From NCBI RefSeq assembly GCF_014656435.1, contig NZ_BNCK01000011.1, positions 1-64,000 of the forward strand: a DNA stretch of 64,000 nucleotides, given 5' to 3'. Position 1 is the stretch's first letter. Each line of letters starts with the position of its first letter. A program made the position numbers and the translations under genes. This DNA comes from Thalassotalea marina. Lineage in GTDB: Bacteria > Pseudomonadota > Gammaproteobacteria > Enterobacterales > Alteromonadaceae. This document shows, one piece after another, positions 29,270 to 37,116 of this stretch. The notes under the pieces were generated by a model. That model worked only from the letters and a program-made list of their open reading frames with translations. It did not search any database and was not told the DNA's origin.

Positions 29270-31225
29270 ATGTTTGATAATTTAAAATTGAATGCGCAGT
29301 TAAAACTGTCATTTGGTTTAATTTTAAGTTTACTCATTATCACCTCGGTTATCGCCGTGACAGGGTTGTCCAATGTTTATAATGGATTTGTCGATTACCG
29401 AGGGTTAGCGGTAAATACAAATTTAAGCAGTCGTTTACAGGCCAATATGCTGATGATGCGTTTGGCGGTTTTAAAATACATCAATACTCAGGATGAAAAA
29501 GCGCTAGCGGATTTTGAAGATAGAGAAGCTAAAATGTCTGGTTTTTTACGAGAAGCGCAAAAAGGTATCTCTAAACCTGAACGAGCTAGGTTAGTAGATA
29601 ACATTGTTGCAGAAGTTGATGATTATAAGGCGGCTTTCAAAAATGTTGTAAATCTTTATCAACAACGTAACGATGTAGTGTCAGGGCAGCTAGATCCTAA
29701 CGGATTAGCGATGCGACAAGCCACCACTGATATCATTAACTCTGCTTACCAAGATGGTGACCCTGATGCGGCGTATCATGCGGCACAAGTCCAAGAACAT
29801 TTATTACTCGGTCGCTTGTATGTAACAAAATTCCTAGTGACCAATAAACAAAGTGATGCCACACGAGCAATTGAAGAGCTTGACGTAAAAATGCGCCAAG
29901 GCTTAACCGATCTTGACGCTCAGGTGCAAAACCCAAATCGCCGTGCTTTATTAACCAAGATTAATCAATACCATCAAGATTATTTAACGGCGTTTAGCCG
30001 GGTACAAGGGATTATCAAACAGCGCAATGATTTAATTGAAAACACCTTAAACCGTATTGGTCCAATAGTCGCAAATCATGCCGAGGACGTTAAGTTATCA
30101 GTTGCGGCTGAACAAGACGCTCTAGGACCAAAAGTCCAAAGCTCAGCAGAAAGCACTAATACCTTGGTATTGGCAATTTCAATCATTGCTGTTGTACTGG
30201 GTGTTTTATGTTCAATCATTATGGCGAAACTGATTCGTCGGCCTATCGGTGGCGAACCACTGGAAATTGCCCACATCACAGACCAAATTGCTGCGGGAGA
30301 CTTTAGCCAAAATGTCGAACTTAAGCAGGACGATAGTGGCATTTACCGCTCTGTTGTAGAGATGTCTAAAAAGTTGCAGGAGCTGATTGCAGCTCTTAGA
30401 AACAGTAGTGACATGTTAATCGATTCGGCAAATGTTAGCTCAAGTGTCGCAGCCAACAATGCTGAACGAGTGTTAAAGCAAAAACAAATGACCGACTTAG
30501 TGGTGGTCGCTGTGGAAGAAATGTCTGCCAGCATTAAAGAGATTGTTAATAATGCTGAGGAATCTGCTACTCGTGCCGAGCAAGGACTACAAGAAGCCGA
30601 TAGTGGCCGCACCACAGTGCAAAGTACATTGGATTCAATTAATACTTTGGCAGCGAATTTATCAGATGCGATGACGGTAATTAATGACTTAGAAAAACAA
30701 AGTACCGAAATTGGCTCTGTGGTAGAAGTGATTCAAAGCATTTCTGAACAAACCAATTTGTTGGCGCTCAATGCCGCAATTGAAGCTGCTCGAGCAGGTG
30801 AACAAGGCAGAGGATTTGCTGTTGTTGCTGATGAAGTAAGAACGTTAGCACAGCGTACTCAACAATCAACCAGCGAAATTCAAACCATTATTCAAAACTT
30901 GCAACAAGGCACGGCTAAAACGGTAGAAGTGATGGAGTTAAGCACCAAGCAAGCTTCTGAAACGGTTGAGCGATCGTCGGTAATTGATTCTGCGTTAGCG
31001 TCTATTCAGGAAATTATTAGCGATATATCATCCATGAATAGTCATGTGGCCACTGCGGTTGATCAACAATCAAAAGTGACAGCAGAAATCAGCGAGAATA
31101 TTACCTCAATTAGTGACCAGCTTGATGAAACGACCATTGCCGCCGCCGAAGCACAAGATACTAGTGCAAAAGTAAAAGCGCTGGCGCAAGAGCTAAATGA
31201 CATGTCTTCACAATATAAGATTTAA
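29270..31225 (+). CDS. Methyl-accepting chemotaxis protein
   Basis: A 651-aa chemoreceptor. An N-terminal helix (about 12-33) and a second one near 298-320 bracket a long helical periplasmic sensor with repeated LxxR/LxxY heptads. A HAMP region follows (about 320-375), then the signalling coiled coil with the conserved hairpin tip [20 protein letters not shown] near 497-516. AGGAAAGG precedes the ATG. The ligand cannot be told from the sequence. Confidence 0.93.
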
Positions 31226-31261
31226 CGGCAAAACACGTACCACAATACGCTGACAAGCAAT

Positions 31262-31297
31262 AAAGGCCTCTACAACATTAAGTTGTAGGGGCCTTTA
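31262..31297. terminator. Bidirectional terminator between chemoreceptor and asnB-like gene
   Basis: A stem of about 15 positions (AAAGGCCTCTACAAC with GTTGTAGGGGCCTTT, one bulge) lies between convergent stops at 31225 and 31301, with A and T runs on either side for both strands. Confidence 0.85.
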
Positions 31298-31300
31298 TCA

Positions 31301-33307
31301 TTAAACTCGCCACCCTAAGTGATTTGCTTTGTCTCTTGCCAATTGACTGACGTCTTGAGCAACAAATAAGTGATGCAAAATCATGATACCAAGGACATGG
31401 TTTAACAAAGCGTCGTTTTGTACTTTTTCTGCGTCACTTGTTACATCACTCTCTTGTCGTTGTATCAATATTTCCAAAAAGCCAGGGTCAATTAATTGCG
31501 CAGCTTCCAAACTTACTGGTGATGCAAACTTTTCTAAGAGTGATTTAAGTTTAAGCCATTTTTTTTCATCAGTGTGGGCTGGTGGCGCCATAAAGGCGAA
31601 TTTTTCACGATTGTATAGCGTTTCAGGAATAACACCTTTAACCGCTTCTCTTAATACATGTTTTTCGCGTGCACCTTTGATACGCATTTCTGGAGGAATT
31701 AACGTGGCAAATTCCGCTAGTTTGTGATCTAAAAAGGCTGGGCGTGCCTCCATTGAGTTCGCCATATCTACACGGTCACCGCCCCAAGTTAAAATTTGTC
31801 CTTCTAACATGGTTTTTATCCAAACGTATTGGGCTTTATCTAGTGGGTGTCGCCCTGCTAGATAATTATGATCAAGCTTTTCCGCTATTGCTTGGCCTGG
31901 CTCGTATTGGGCAACTTCGTCGCGTCTGGTTTGATGAATAAGCTGTTTGGCAACACCCGCACAACCAAGCCAAGGCTGCAGACAACTTGGTGTAAAACCA
32001 ACTTTGTCATTGATATCTGATGATGAATATTCATCCTTTGGTAACATTGCACCCTGAAATAGCTTGTTATTCGCTTCCAGTGCTTGTTGCCAAGACTTGG
32101 CTTGTTCTGCGTCCATGCCATCCATACCATGCAAAAACATGTCTTTTCTAAAAGCAGGATAGCCAGCAAACAGCTCATCAGAGCCTTCACCTGTTAACAC
32201 GACTTTATAGTTAACGTGTCTAACTTGCTGAGACATCATGAGTTTGGCGACCGCCAGCGTATTGTATATGGTGCGCTCTGTGTGCCAAATGGTGCGTTCA
32301 AAGTTGTCGTATAACAGTTCAGCGTTGAGTTCTAGTATTTCCTGCTCTGCACCAACAGACTCAGCCATTTCGGTGGCAATGGGGGTTTCGTCATAGTCTG
32401 CATTATCAAATGCGATAGTAAATGCTTTTATCGGCTCTTGTGAGGCCGCTGAGGCTAATCCAAGAATTGAACATGAATCTATCCCACCTGAAAGGTAGCA
32501 ACCAACAGGTACATCAGCATTTAGCCTTAACTGTACCGCTTCCAATAAGTGTTTTCTAACGCCTGAAATATAAAAGTCATCGGAGTGTTGCACTCGCATA
32601 TCAAGCTCAGGAAAGTCCATGTCCCAATATTTACGGGTTTCTATCTTAAACTGGCCGTTTGAGCGGGTGATTTTTAACAAGTGACCAGGTTCTACTTGTG
32701 AAATTCCGGTAAACGCTGTGGTACCAGGTACCATCACCTGAATCAACTGATGAAATAAGCCTTGTGTATCGATTTCTGCTTTGACCTTAGGATGAGCTAG
32801 CACCACTTTAACCTCTGAGCCAAAAACTATTTCGTCACCAGTATTGCTCCAGTAAAGAGGCTTTACGCCAAATCGATCTCTGACTAAATACAAAGCGTCT
32901 TCTTGTTCATCATATAGCGAAAAGGCAAATTCTCCTCGGAGCTGCTCAAGAGTTTTATCGATGCCATATTTTTTATATAACAAGGGAACGATCTCAGAGT
33001 CACTTTTACTACTAAAGCTACAACCTTGTGCTGTTAACTCGGCGCGAATACGTTGGAAATCATAAAATTCACCATTGTGAGCATAAATAATGGTGCCTTC
33101 TAACCAAAATGGCTGACGTCCTCTCTCTTCGTTTAAATCGATAATCGACAAGCGAGAGTGGCTCATGCCGACACCTAGGCCCGTTGGGTTACAATAACCA
33201 TAATTATCGGGACCACGGTGATGTTGGATGGCCGCCATGTTAACTAAAATTTGTGAATCTATCTGAGTGCTTTGGCGTGATGTAAACACCCCTGCAATGC
33301 CACACAT
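31301..33307 (-). CDS. Asparagine synthase (glutamine-hydrolysing) family protein
   Basis: The 668-aa protein starts MCGIAGVF, so Cys2 is the glutaminase nucleophile. The Ntn glutaminase domain runs to about 210 (RGPDNYG, NGEFYDF) and is followed by an ATP-pyrophosphatase synthetase domain with the PP-loop SGGIDS (273-278) and LTGEGSDELFAGY. It is about 110 residues longer than E. coli AsnB, as in forms that serve specialised amidations. AGGGGAA precedes the ATG. It lies 16 bp after the carbamoyltransferase-like gene, so it may amidate a product of that enzyme rather than supply ordinary asparagine (inference). Confidence 0.88.
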   Translation of the reverse strand: MCGIAGVFTSRQSTQIDSQILVNMAAIQHHRGPDNYGYCNPTGLGVGMSHSRLSIIDLNEERGRQPFWLEGTIIYAHNGEFYDFQRIRAELTAQGCSFSSKSDSEIVPLLYKKYGIDKTLEQLRGEFAFSLYDEQEDALYLVRDRFGVKPLYWSNTGDEIVFGSEVKVVLAHPKVKAEIDTQGLFHQLIQVMVPGTTAFTGISQVEPGHLLKITRSNGQFKIETRKYWDMDFPELDMRVQHSDDFYISGVRKHLLEAVQLRLNADVPVGCYLSGGIDSCSILGLASAASQEPIKAFTIAFDNADYDETPIATEMAESVGAEQEILELNAELLYDNFERTIWHTERTIYNTLAVAKLMMSQQVRHVNYKVVLTGEGSDELFAGYPAFRKDMFLHGMDGMDAEQAKSWQQALEANNKLFQGAMLPKDEYSSSDINDKVGFTPSCLQPWLGCAGVAKQLIHQTRRDEVAQYEPGQAIAEKLDHNYLAGRHPLDKAQYVWIKTMLEGQILTWGGDRVDMANSMEARPAFLDHKLAEFATLIPPEMRIKGAREKHVLREAVKGVIPETLYNREKFAFMAPPAHTDEKKWLKLKSLLEKFASPVSLEAAQLIDPGFLEILIQRQESDVTSDAEKVQNDALLNHVLGIMILHHLFVAQDVSQLARDKANHLGWRV

Positions 33308-33323
33308 AATTTCCCCTGAAAAA

Positions 33324-34397
33324 TTAAATAATATCGAGTACGCGTTGAGTTCGTCTTACTAAACAGGTAAGCAACGCTTGTCTAAGAAATACCGCCCCAC
33401 GAGCTTGAGCAAAATACCAATTATGTGGTGTGTGATCTAAGCTTGCACAAAGCTCTTCCCCGCGGGCTAGCGGGTGTAAAATGATTGCGTCAGTTTTAAG
33501 TTTGGTTTTGGCATCTAACTTAAATTGGCTGCCATATTCTTGAAAGGTATCACCTTCCCATGTGATTGCATTAATGTAGATCACATCAGCATTGGCGACA
33601 CTGTCAGAAAACGACTGGCTAACATTGACCGTTAAACCACTGGCAAGTAGTTGCTCTTTTTGACCCGCTGAAAAAATATTTTCTTCAGTATCATTGGCCA
33701 AAATAGTGACCGAATTAAAGGCCGTAGAAAATTTAGCAATTAGCTTTAATAAACTTCTAACCGTGCGCATTTTTGCCGGCAAGCCAATAATACAGATGTC
33801 AATCGGGTGTTCGGGAGATGCTTGGGCTAGTTCAGGACGCCATTTAAAAATGGTGTAAAGATCTGATAATGCTTGAGTTGGGTGTTCATCTAACCCATTA
33901 CCTGCATTAATTATAGGAATACGTAAAGAGTCCATCATTTCCTTTACCGATGACTCATTTGACTCTCTAAGGACAACGCAATCACCATAGTTATTGAACA
34001 TCTCTGCAACATCTGCAAGTGACTCGCCTTTAGCAATGCCTGTAGTTGAGCGATCTGTGATAGACATTATGTCTCCACCTAAGCGATGCCAAGCACTTTC
34101 AAAGGAAAGCCGTGTTCTGGTACTAGGCTCGTAAAAGGCGGAAATAAGTATTTGGCCGCGTAAAGAGGCGGAAAACCTATCTGGATTTGCTTCGTACTTT
34201 GCCGCTAGTCGAAATAACTGTAGCAATGTTTGTTGGTCAAATTGATCTGCAGAGTAAATATGCTGATTTGCAATTGTTTCTAAACATTCACCATCCTCCA
34301 TAATAGAACGCAACAAGTTTTTGGGATGGGCATTACCATATACATCAGGCTTTTTTCGCTCAAAGCTAACGATATCGTCTAAATTAGGGTCTACCAT
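33324..34397 (-). CDS. Aspartate-carbamoyltransferase-like protein with altered substrate site
   Basis: This 357-aa member of the ATCase/OTCase family keeps the carbamoyl-phosphate site: STRTR (92-96), Lys123, Arg144, His172 and Gln175 in EHPTQ, and HPL (308-310). Arg211 also aligns with E. coli Arg167. At the places of the E. coli aspartate-binding Arg229 and Gln231 it has Ala277 and Thr279, so aspartate is unlikely to be the normal acceptor. There is a 40-residue N-terminal extension and no pyrI nearby. The ATG overlaps the end of an upstream 40-aa ORF by 7 bp, and the asparagine-synthase gene follows. Confidence 0.82.
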   Translation of the reverse strand: MVDPNLDDIVSFERKKPDVYGNAHPKNLLRSIMEDGECLETIANQHIYSADQFDQQTLLQLFRLAAKYEANPDRFSASLRGQILISAFYEPSTRTRLSFESAWHRLGGDIMSITDRSTTGIAKGESLADVAEMFNNYGDCVVLRESNESSVKEMMDSLRIPIINAGNGLDEHPTQALSDLYTIFKWRPELAQASPEHPIDICIIGLPAKMRTVRSLLKLIAKFSTAFNSVTILANDTEENIFSAGQKEQLLASGLTVNVSQSFSDSVANADVIYINAITWEGDTFQEYGSQFKLDAKTKLKTDAIILHPLARGEELCASLDHTPHNWYFAQARGAVFLRQALLTCLVRRTQRVLDII

Positions 34398-34513
34398 AAT
34401 GATTTCTTCATAACATCTTTAAAAAATAGAAACAGCAACACTAAAGGGGTAACACTTGATACACATAGCGCCGTGTATACGATTGTCGAAAGAAATAACT
34501 CACTGACGAACAT
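34391..34513 (-). CDS. Small 40-aa membrane ORF between symporter and carbamoyltransferase genes
   Basis: An ATG at 34513 lies 6 nt after AAAGGAG and 4 nt after the symporter stop. The 40-aa product starts MFVSELFLST, then one long hydrophobic stretch ending VLLFLFF, then KDVMKKSLW. Its TAG overlaps the carbamoyltransferase start by 7 bp (ATGGTAG), giving tight coupling on both sides. Small single-helix partners are known for some sodium symporters, so it may be a subunit of the one upstream (inference). Confidence 0.7.
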   Translation of the reverse strand: MFVSELFLSTIVYTALCVSSVTPLVLLFLFFKDVMKKSLW

Positions 34514-34517
34514 TGTT

Positions 34518-35930
34518 TTACTCCTTTAGTTGTAGCCACTGAAAATGGATTGCTCTAAGGCGGATGAAATATTGGCAGATAACAAATGACACAAAACAAG
34601 AAGCTAGTGCCGCGGTATAAAAGCCAACTTGAAAGTAAAAAATGAGTCCTACTATCGTGCCCAACATCATCGCGAGGCCGGCTCCTTTATTTGAAAGCTT
34701 ATTACCATATAGGCCATAAAGAATTGGCCAAATTGTTGAAGCGACAAATGCACCAGTAAAATTTAGCAAAGCGCCTAAGGTGGTTATTTGGGGCAAACTC
34801 ATTAACCAAGTAAATAGGCCCAGCAAAACAATCATTAATTTGTTTACCGTTAATATTTGCTGAGTTGACGCATTTTTCATCAATAACTTTTTGTAAATGT
34901 CGTTTGATAACAAATCAGATGTTGCCGCTAACAGTGAATCCATGCTTGAGGCTAAGGCAGAAAAGATAATAATAAAAATTAATACGGCACCGGCACCGCC
35001 AAGCAGTTCACCTGCGACCAGTGGCCCTATCATATCGGGTGAAGCCGGAAAAATACCCAAAGAGTTAGATGAAAGGGCGATAAAGCCCGTCACAATAGGG
35101 ATTGGAAACCAAAGCATCGCAGCCAAAATAAAAGACTTTTTTCCAACTCCTTTTTTAAAGGCAAGCGCTCTTGACCACCAAACATTGGAGTGAAAAATTT
35201 CACCAATGCCAAAAATGACATTATTAAAAAAGAACATTAATGCGGCGGGAAACAATAGATTTAATAGTTGTGGCTGTTGCTGTTCTACGTTGGCATGAAC
35301 TTGTTCTAAACTAATTTGGCCCAGCGCGCTGTAAGCGATGTAACATACGCCACAGATGATAATCAGGGTTTGAACAAAGTCAGTGGCAATCACCGCGCGT
35401 AATCCACCAAGTAAGGTGTACAGCACACAAACGGTAATAATTACTGTCATGCCCGTGTGATAGCTTATTGGGCTTAAGGTCGATAATAAAATACCACCAG
35501 CCATGCCTAGGCTAACTAACCACCCAAGTGCGTAACATAACGAGATGATTAAAAAAACAGACCATGCAAACCGTCCAAAACGCATGTAGATAAAATCACC
35601 ACTTGTTACCCCATGAGGTAAAATAGTTTTGATGCGCTGAGCAAGTGGAGCAAAGAGCAATAATCCTAATGCTGCCATGCTGTAACCTAACATTCCCCAA
35701 ACACCAAATTGATAGGTGAGCTGCGGTGCAACTAAAGTTGTGTTGCTGGTGACCCAAGTCGCCATCGCCGTTGCTGTCGCTAAAGCAAAGCCAACATTTC
35801 GCCCTGCAAGAGCAAAATCATCTTGAGACTTAGCTTTTCTTCCAAGGTACCAACCCCAACAAACCCAGAGTACTGAAAAACCAATTAAAATAGCTAGAGT
35901 CAGTTCAAAACTAATTAGATGTGTAATCAT
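34518..35930 (-). CDS. Sodium:solute symporter family transporter
   Basis: A 470-aa SSS-family protein with about 13 helices. Visible are AGRNVGFALATATAMATWV in the Na+-site helix II region, LGGLRAVIATDFVQTLI and FSALASSMDSLLAATSD. In general feel it is closer to urea/Dur3-like or uncharacterised members than to PutP, but the substrate cannot be assigned. Its start overlaps the end of the upstream 134-aa gene by 20 bp, and it has no ribosome-binding site of its own, so translation is probably coupled. Confidence 0.82.
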   Translation of the reverse strand: MITHLISFELTLAILIGFSVLWVCWGWYLGRKAKSQDDFALAGRNVGFALATATAMATWVTSNTTLVAPQLTYQFGVWGMLGYSMAALGLLLFAPLAQRIKTILPHGVTSGDFIYMRFGRFAWSVFLIISLCYALGWLVSLGMAGGILLSTLSPISYHTGMTVIITVCVLYTLLGGLRAVIATDFVQTLIIICGVCYIAYSALGQISLEQVHANVEQQQPQLLNLLFPAALMFFFNNVIFGIGEIFHSNVWWSRALAFKKGVGKKSFILAAMLWFPIPIVTGFIALSSNSLGIFPASPDMIGPLVAGELLGGAGAVLIFIIIFSALASSMDSLLAATSDLLSNDIYKKLLMKNASTQQILTVNKLMIVLLGLFTWLMSLPQITTLGALLNFTGAFVASTIWPILYGLYGNKLSNKGAGLAMMLGTIVGLIFYFQVGFYTAALASCFVSFVICQYFIRLRAIHFQWLQLKE

Positions 35931-36315
35931 GTTTATTGGTTTTTTTATGAAGCTTATATAGGGGTATTGTTAGTGTGCTAAATAATATGCCGCCAAGGAT
36001 AAATAGTGTGAGAGCAAAACGCATAGCATGATGCTTAACGGTAAAAGTAATCGCTGTTTTTTTAATTTCTGAATTTTTCTGAAAAAAGTTTGCTTGGTAA
36101 TTTCCATTCTCTAATCCTGATATCGTGACTGATTTAAGCTCTTTTACCTCTATGGTCTTTATCTGTTTGTTTGCCGTGCTTAGTGACATGTGGGTACACA
36201 GGTCTACACATTGTTCGTGTGGAACGTTTAAGGTGATAAAACCTTCTTTGACCACTTGTTCTGCAACGGCAAATTGACTCAATAATAAAAAGAGTATGCT
36301 TAAGACTTTAATCAA
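35911..36315 (-). CDS. Periplasmic one-helix anchored protein, unknown
   Basis: This 134-aa protein has a signal peptide (1-18, ...FAVA|EQ), an all-beta periplasmic domain of about 75 residues with one Cys pair (CVDLC, about 36-40), and a C-terminal helix (about 95-118) ending in a basic cytoplasmic tail. The start appears to be TTG at 36315; no ATG fits. It is first in the operon with the symporter, which it overlaps by 20 bp. It may bind substrate or partner the transporter. I do not recognise the family. Confidence 0.65.
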   Translation of the reverse strand: MIKVLSILFLLLSQFAVAEQVVKEGFITLNVPHEQCVDLCTHMSLSTANKQIKTIEVKELKSVTISGLENGNYQANFFQKNSEIKKTAITFTVKHHAMRFALTLFILGGILFSTLTIPLYKLHKKTNKHDYTSN

Positions 36316-36331
36316 ATTAATGTTTCATATT

Positions 36332-36368
36332 GTTAGAGTACGAAGGATGTTAACAATGCTTAGAGTAC
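36332..36368 (-). promoter_or_regulatory. Repeated TTAGAGTAC motif upstream of the symporter operon
   Basis: GTTAGAGTACG (36332-36342) and TTAGAGTAC (36360-36368) are direct repeats 28 bp apart, the nearer one 17 bp before the operon start. The same 11-mer GTTAGAGTACG occurs 19 bp before the BCCT gene (42448-42458). Confidence 0.3.
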
Positions 36369-36538
36369 AAATCAAATTGTGAGGCTAAAAAGTTAATGCA
36401 ATTATTTAGGAATAGTTGAGTCTTAAGTGGAAATTTTTAAAGCTTTAGCATTGTGATGTAGCGTTTGTGATATGCGCAGATATTCTACGTGGACATTAAC
36501 CGCTGCAATACAATGTCAAAAAAATTAAAATGCCTAGC

Positions 36539-36548
36539 TAGATATCTA
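36539..36548. promoter_or_regulatory. Palindrome TAGATATCTA in the MarR promoter region
   Basis: A perfect 10-bp palindrome lies 80 bp before the MarR start in the divergent intergenic region (36316-36627), a plausible MarR autoregulation site. The rest of the region is AT-rich without a clear element. Confidence 0.3.
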
Positions 36549-36627
36549 TAAAGTAAATCCGATCAAACATGACGTTATGGCTTATTTGATGGTATTCTTG
36601 CGAAAAACTAAAGATCAGAGACGAGAA

Positions 36628-37116
36628 ATGGAAAAATACGAAGAGCTTTTAATTTCTATTCGTAAAGTCATAAGAGCCATTGATTTACACTCAAAACAAC
36701 TAAATAAATCGTCGGGATTAACAGGTCCTCAGCTACTCATCATGCAAGAAGTTGCACGAGTGAAAGGGGTAACGGCCAGTCAGGTTGCTAAACAAATTAA
36801 CCTTAGTGCGGCAACGGTAACTAATATATTGGATCGCTTGGAAAACAGGGGATTGATCGAGCGCGTCAGAAGTTCAGAAGATAAGCGTCGTGTTAGTTTA
36901 TTCCTATCAGATGCTGGTCGAGCTTCATTGATTGACGCACCCCAGCCGTTGCAAGAGCATTTCATTAAGAACTTTTGTGCTCTTCAAGAGTGGGAACAAT
37001 CTTTACTACTATCTTCAATGCAGCGCATTGCGAGTATGATGGATGCAACAGATATTGATGCAGCGCCAGTATTAGAAATTGATCCTATGCATATGAGCAC
37101 GGAAAAAACTCGTTAA
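36628..37116 (+). CDS. MarR-family transcriptional regulator
   Basis: A 162-aa winged-helix regulator: helix-turn-helix about 45-75 (VTASQVAKQINLSAATVTNI) and the wing with the conserved DKRRV. Start chosen at 36628, giving MEKYEELLISIRK behind GACGAG; the longest frame begins 17 codons earlier with a poor site. It is divergent from the symporter/carbamoyltransferase/asparagine-synthase operon and is the natural candidate for its repressor, presumably responding to the transported or produced compound. Confidence 0.85.
   Translation: MEKYEELLISIRKVIRAIDLHSKQLNKSSGLTGPQLLIMQEVARVKGVTASQVAKQINLSAATVTNILDRLENRGLIERVRSSEDKRRVSLFLSDAGRASLIDAPQPLQEHFIKNFCALQEWEQSLLLSSMQRIASMMDATDIDAAPVLEIDPMHMSTEKTR

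Follow-up and report, generated by a model that had tools for sequence, protein, structure and literature searches.

The window analysed here is a stretch of 64,000 nucleotides from Thalassotalea marina (contig NZ_BNCK01000011.1 of assembly GCF_014656435.1, positions 1-64,000), and this text concerns a five-gene operon on its minus strand, at 31301-36315. The head gene (35911-36315, with a TTG start) encodes SP, a signal-peptide-like protein of 134 residues with one transmembrane (TM) helix, and overlaps by 20 bp the gene for an SSS-family Na+/solute symporter of 470 residues (34518-35930; SSF match of 82 bits). A 4-bp gap separates the symporter from SML, a one-TM open reading frame (ORF) of 40 residues with a C-terminal LW (34391-34513), which overlaps by 7 bp the gene for CT, a carbamoyltransferase of 357 residues (33324-34397; OTCace_N and OTCace). 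After a further 16 bp comes ASN, an asparagine-synthetase-like amidotransferase of 668 residues (31301-33307; GATase_7 and Asn_synthase). A MarR-family regulator is encoded divergently on the plus strand (36577-37116; Pfam MarR). The first-pass annotation of this DNA had placed the five genes and the divergent regulator in the same way, and all of its coordinates, overlaps and gaps were confirmed.

The operon is closed by a strong terminator-like hairpin on the minus strand (31259-31299), directly 3' of the ASN stop codon, with a folding energy of -26.3 kcal/mol and a z-score of -6.35; none of 200 shuffled sequences was equally stable. At the other end, the intergenic region between the operon and the MarR gene (36316-36576) is the presumed site of both promoters and of the operator. 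It contains no clear operator, only weak inverted repeats, and its promoter-like matches are no better than those of shuffled sequences.

The matches to OTCace_N and OTCace, GATase_7 and Asn_synthase, SSF and MarR all exceed the Pfam cut-offs, and SP and SML match no family in Pfam or NCBIfam. Both small genes nevertheless recur in place across the loci of relatives, which suggests that they are more than chance ORFs. The counts that follow, like all counts of named loci or named relatives in this text, refer to the best 80 of 575 confirmed stretches in a named scan. With a hidden Markov model (HMM) of its own, which scores 64.9 bits in the window, SML was detected directly 5' of CT in 70 of the 80 loci, and no symporter was detected in any of the other ten. 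SP, likewise traced by HMM, is present in 62 of them, followed by a gene for an M20-family hydrolase in 33 and by the symporter in 29. The 18 loci without SP comprise eight from Ectothiorhodospira, that of Thiorhodospira sibirica, one Tenderia metagenome-assembled genome (MAG) and eight short contigs. SP combines a signal-peptide-like N-terminus with a predicted Fn3-like periplasmic beta-sandwich and a C-terminal TM helix, and is likely associated with the symporter.

The carbamoyltransferase and the amidotransferase

CT falls below the curated models for both classical carbamoyltransferases, scoring 193.8 bits against a cut-off of 263 (NF002032) and 186.6 against 237 (TIGR00670) for aspartate carbamoyltransferase (ATCase), and 113.7 against 306 for ornithine carbamoyltransferase (OTC). 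The OTC motif, DxxxSMG, is missing from 23 of 24 CT rows, including that of the window; the lone match (L025) lies elsewhere in the sequence and appears by eye to be a chance string. In a phylogenetic tree, CT forms a clade apart from PyrB (SH-aLRT 99), and the window genome also encodes a separate, normal PyrB and ArgF.

The active site of CT is both strictly kept and locally rebuilt. An alignment of the 80 named relatives shows the carbamoyl-phosphate residues and the equivalents of ATCase Arg167 and Lys84 to be invariant (80/80), together with N276, I278, W280, L310, A311 and R312. In ATCase, R229 and Q231 take part in holding the beta-carboxylate of aspartate. The Q231 position is occupied in the relatives by A (65), S (13), V (1) or L (1) and in the window by T, and that of R229 by A (63), S (12), T (4) or K (1), with A in the window. 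CT thus departs from PyrB by R229 to A, Q231 to T, A or S, P268 to A and S80 to G. CT is a distinct, ATCase-derived clade without the residues that recognize the aspartate side chain. The loss of R229 and Q231, with R167 and K84 kept, points to an alpha-amino acid whose side chain is not acidic as the substrate, and we propose that CT is a glutamine N-alpha-carbamoyltransferase.

More distant relatives of CT, at 35-37% identity (L038, 1501-2478; L039, 1501-2505; L040, 1501-2502), have the carbamoyl-phosphate motif STRTR changed (NQTR, NRTR, SHTR) and may form a pseudo-carbamoyltransferase family. Their neighbourhoods (L096-L098) hold no nearby match to the amidotransferase or the symporter, and in one genome an ABC transporter-like pair, recognized by eye, adjoins the gene.

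ASN passes the broad asparagine synthetase model TIGR01536 (426 bits; cut-off 267) and lies below narrower ones: the AsnB equivalog NF006949 (252.4 bits against 499), the AsnO equivalog of N-acetylglutaminylglutamine amide (NAGGN) synthesis, by a wide margin (280.6 bits against 570.1), and the XrtA-type asparagine synthetase models, whose cut-off it does not reach. Its orthologues from Ectothiorhodospira mobilis and Leptospiraceae score like the window protein on these models. Cys2, the SGGxDS loop, E374/D377 and K569 are all retained in the window, and across 78 aligned orthologues Cys2 and R52 occur in all 78, and each further catalytic residue examined in 71-77; the orthologues that fall short have no letter in the aligned stretch, and no substitutions were seen. 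From these motifs, ASN is a glutamine-dependent amidotransferase of the asparagine-synthetase fold, for which we propose amidation of the alpha-carboxyl group of carbamoylglutamine.

One account of such a pair would be a backup for pyrimidine and asparagine synthesis, in which a surplus ATCase and asparagine synthetase have come to be co-transcribed by chance. Both proteins do resemble those enzymes in fold or sequence, and ASN passes TIGR01536. The account nonetheless appears extremely improbable, given that R229 and Q231 are lost in 80 of 80 relatives, that the PyrB and AsnB cut-offs are unmet, that PyrB, ArgF and further Asn_synthase proteins are encoded elsewhere in the genome, and that a carbamoylase is co-inherited with CT, as described below. 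The first-pass annotation had named ordinary ATCase and asparagine synthetase activity as the outcome that would overturn its reading, and these comparisons make that outcome unlikely.

Conservation of the gene set and its accompanying hydrolases

The distribution of CT was followed in a class sample of 369 genomes (match threshold E 1e-55) and in a sample of 295 genomes from the family of the window organism. CT is matched in 25 genomes of the class sample, including that of the window; 22 others are orthologues at 55-64% identity (one of them partial), and two (G201 and G310) hold only a 37% relative. Within the family, 50 of the 295 genomes carry CT, again counting the window genome. Wider neighbourhoods were assembled for 36 loci (20 of the 22 class orthologues, 13 of the family's 49 further carriers and the three 35-37% relatives). 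ASN adjoins CT in 32 of the 33 orthologue neighbourhoods, the contig ending inside CT in the remaining one, and the symporter is present in 29. The named loci agree: 78 of them continue for 600 bases or more past CT, and 77 of these have ASN after it on the same strand, 74 at a distance of no more than 300 bases; the symporter lies upstream of CT on the same strand in 63 of the 73 with at least 2 kb upstream. In three loci (L146, L147 and L163), both hydrolase genes intervene between CT and ASN.

The named carriers include Ectothiorhodospira (L106-L110, L112, L113 and L137), Thiorhodospira, Thioalkalivibrio, Thiohalobacter, Thiohalophilus, Kangiella, Aliikangiella, Idiomarinaceae, various MAGs, and MAGs of Leptospiraceae and Spirochaetia. 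The gene set is therefore conserved, and partly modular, across many gammaproteobacterial families and in Spirochaetota MAGs. A search for co-occurrence had been suggested in the first-pass annotation, which would have taken confinement to close relatives as a refutation; a set that spans many families and two phyla is not so confined. The Leptospiraceae CTs are nested in the tree among gammaproteobacterial CTs, which suggests horizontal transfer as the likely route into Spirochaetota.

The Spirochaetota carriers are two Leptospiraceae MAGs (L146 and L147), in which the gene order is symporter-CT-M20-isochorismatase-ASN, and one Spirochaetia MAG (L152). Separately, in one draft genome (L077, 897-2877), the amidotransferase lies in two adjoining pieces and the M20 match covers the C-terminal part only, perhaps through an assembly or sequencing fault.

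Many clusters in relatives add two hydrolases. The first is an M20 hydantoinase/carbamoylase (NF006771, 537 bits against a cut-off of 399) that matches the N-carbamoyl-L-amino acid hydrolase of PDB 3n5f at E 1e-77 and has the ErtE N-carbamyl-L-glutamate hydrolase model among its best three, below the cut-off of that model. The second has an isochorismatase fold, and its nearest models are biuret hydrolase and RutB (ureidoacrylate), both below their cut-offs. Among the 63 long named loci, M20 occurs in 43, the isochorismatase-fold protein in 36 and neither in 20, of which 19 are from Idiomarinaceae and one is T. sibirica.

Outside the family of the window organism, both hydrolases were found in all 21 CT carriers examined (the partial one omitted), near CT in 20 of them and, in the other, with CT on a contig of 3.4 kb; 19 non-carriers yielded one M20 match at 36% and one isochorismatase match at 35%. 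Inside the family, M20 (E 1e-100) occurs in 47 of 295 genomes, all of them among the 50 CT carriers and none among the 245 non-carriers (Fisher p 2e-51, which is not a strict probability, as the genomes are related). The three family carriers without M20 are the window genome, G596 and G613. Among genera with small genomes, M20 and CT are often on different contigs (as in G453 and G660), so linkage alone does not explain the co-inheritance. The isochorismatase was present in only one of 15 family CT carriers tested. At E 1e-30, neither hydrolase is matched in the window genome, which may be unable to recycle its solute by this route.

Breadth of this kind bears on the possibility that the operon makes a specialised metabolite or an antimetabolite from a ureido amino acid. 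AsnB-like enzymes and carbamoyltransferases do occur in specialised-metabolite clusters, but the five genes include no ligase or exporter and match no defence family, and the set occurs broadly with linked degradation genes, so that we regard such a product as very improbable. The antimetabolite entertained in the first-pass annotation is thus not supported, and neither, given the missing ligase, is its peptide-like coupling.

Transport, regulation and the proposed osmolyte

The nearest solved relatives of the symporter are the DUR3 urea transporters (E 7e-27, the next best chain being at 9e-10), although the matches span mainly symporter residues 221-435 and DUR3 proteins are longer. The symporter likely imports or recaptures a ureido solute. 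Its likeness to DUR3 makes the ureido product a better candidate cargo than the starting amine, whose uptake had been suggested initially.

A DUR3-like symporter, together with the hydrolases of relatives, would also suit nitrogen scavenging, in which imported ureido compounds are degraded and a reversed CT reaction supplies carbamoyl phosphate and ATP; catabolic carbamoyltransferases exist. This reading seems improbable to us, since the most constant neighbour of CT is the ATP-consuming ASN (77/78), the window genome retains ASN without a hydrolase match at E 1e-30, and eight Ectothiorhodospira loci retain CT and ASN without the symporter.

We consider that the operon most likely serves the synthesis and uptake of carbamoylglutamine amide (CGA), a salt-protective compound reportedly described by Galinski and Oren in 1991. 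The structure of CGA needs exactly one carbamoyl transfer and one alpha-amidation. CT would carbamoylate the alpha-amino group of glutamine with carbamoyl phosphate as donor, and ASN would use ATP to turn the alpha-carboxylate into an amide, with nitrogen from the side chain of another glutamine, so that both charges are masked. The DUR3-like Na+ symporter and its two small membrane partners would recapture leaked or external CGA. By analogy, the divergent MarR protein is likely a repressor that would be relieved under osmotic stress; of the 63 long named loci, 36 have a MarR match that reaches 60 bits. After a downshift, CGA would in most relatives be returned to glutamine by the M20 carbamoylase and, outside the family of the window organism, by the isochorismatase-type amidohydrolase. 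Of the pathway sketched in the first-pass annotation, carbamoylation from carbamoyl phosphate, amidation and a ureido osmolyte thus gain comparative backing, and CGA is the known compound that matches them.

The link to CGA comes from the organism in which it was found, Ectothiorhodospira marismortui, according to the passages covered of two sources (PMC1224877; PMC3857566). The type strain of this species is listed as DSM 4180 in a table of PMC7824335, itself covered in part, and NCBI taxonomy treats E. marismortui as E. mobilis. The locus of E. mobilis DSM 4180 (L112) has the gene order M20-isochorismatase-CT-ASN, and the fetched stretch of genome G359 (L081) is contained in it letter for letter. 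G359 encodes three PF02729 proteins, one with the OTC motif, one with the ATCase motif, and CT, which leaves CT as the sole spare carbamoyltransferase of this fold, other folds lying outside the search. In this type strain, CT and ASN, the candidates for the two activities that CGA would require, lie side by side. The passages covered of the open literature on CGA name no genes.

A precedent for such an operon is that of NAGGN in Pseudomonas aeruginosa (asnO-ngg-peptidase), which, in the part of PMC8070244 covered, comprises the AsnO amidotransferase, an N-blocking enzyme, a peptidase and the divergent MarR repressor PA3458, and supports growth at high osmolarity. Both systems unite an AsnB-type amidotransferase, an N-blocking enzyme, a hydrolase (here in relatives) and a divergent MarR gene, and the neutral, glutamine-derived osmolyte of the one has its counterpart in the product proposed for the other. 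The window operon differs in that N-blocking would be by a carbamoyl rather than an acetyl group, in having its own symporter, in an ASN far under the AsnO cut-off, and in lacking a dipeptide-forming Ngg, GNAT or ligase gene among its five.

Ectoine offers a second comparison. The four Thalassotalea congeners sampled exceed the ectA cut-off (TIGR02406), all without CT, and the window genome, which has CT, shows no EctA match to this model. Among the 13 listed genomes of the set g11, CT occurs alone in six and ectA alone in four; one genome has both genes and two have neither. Over the family sample, 17 of 295 genomes exceed the ectA cut-off, and one of these has CT.

Several observations weigh against CGA as the product. 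The pocket of CT argues for a non-acidic side chain only, and glutamine was picked from the known compound. In the parts of the sources covered, CGA is reported from one organism, as a minor solute (PMC3857566), while the genes are widespread, and the CGA work names the species with its strain unstated, whereas the genome examined here is that of the type strain. The E. mobilis genome has eight Asn_synthase matches, five of them strong and ASN included, so that ASN is assigned by adjacency and not by elimination. All eight Ectothiorhodospira loci lack the symporter module. T. sibirica (L111, 9789-11011), with CT and SML, is the sole one of the 78 loci without a following ASN, and no amidotransferase, symporter or hydrolase match lies within 10 kb of its CT; this locus may have decayed, or its partner genes may be located elsewhere. 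The opposition of ectA and CT is not significant across the family (1/50 against 16/245, p 0.32), and no expression data on osmotic induction of the operon were found.

The first of these points leaves room for a different neutral ureido-amide, such as carbamoyl-asparagine amide or carbamoylglycinamide, made by the same enzymes in the same osmolyte role from another amino acid. The active site reveals only the loss of side-chain carboxylate recognition, and the R229 and Q231 positions differ slightly among lineages. We nonetheless judge this alternative unlikely, since CT and ASN occur together in the type strain of the sole species reported with CGA, and the six residues invariant in 80 of 80 relatives, from N276 to R312, suggest a single substrate throughout.

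With CGA as the product, these genes would probably constitute a full module for making, importing and recycling this solute, common among gammaproteobacteria of marine and haloalkaliphilic habit and carried into Spirochaetota. Its carbamoyltransferase would have a new specificity, and the module could replace ectoine synthesis between congeneric species. A solute reported from one organism could then be traced by its genes in Thioalkalivibrio, Idiomarinaceae, Kangiella and others. These would include Ectothiorhodospira magna, a purple sulfur bacterium whose locus (L106) shows the row M20-isochorismatase-CT-ASN. The covered passages of the genome survey PMC7824335 report that genes for solute synthesis were not found in E. 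magna, nor genes for osmotic stress in T. sibirica, where SML and CT are the only members seen, and list sucrose, CGA or NAGGN as candidates for T. sibirica and Ectothiorhodosinus. The module would further yield, besides the new carbamoyltransferase, a candidate for ureido-solute uptake in its DUR3-like symporter, from genes that automatic annotation could easily mislabel as aspartate carbamoyltransferase and asparagine synthase.

Beyond the terminator-like hairpin, a methyl-accepting chemotaxis protein, which might sense a related amino acid and whose HBM sensor match is below threshold, is encoded at 29270-31225 of the window, convergent with the operon.

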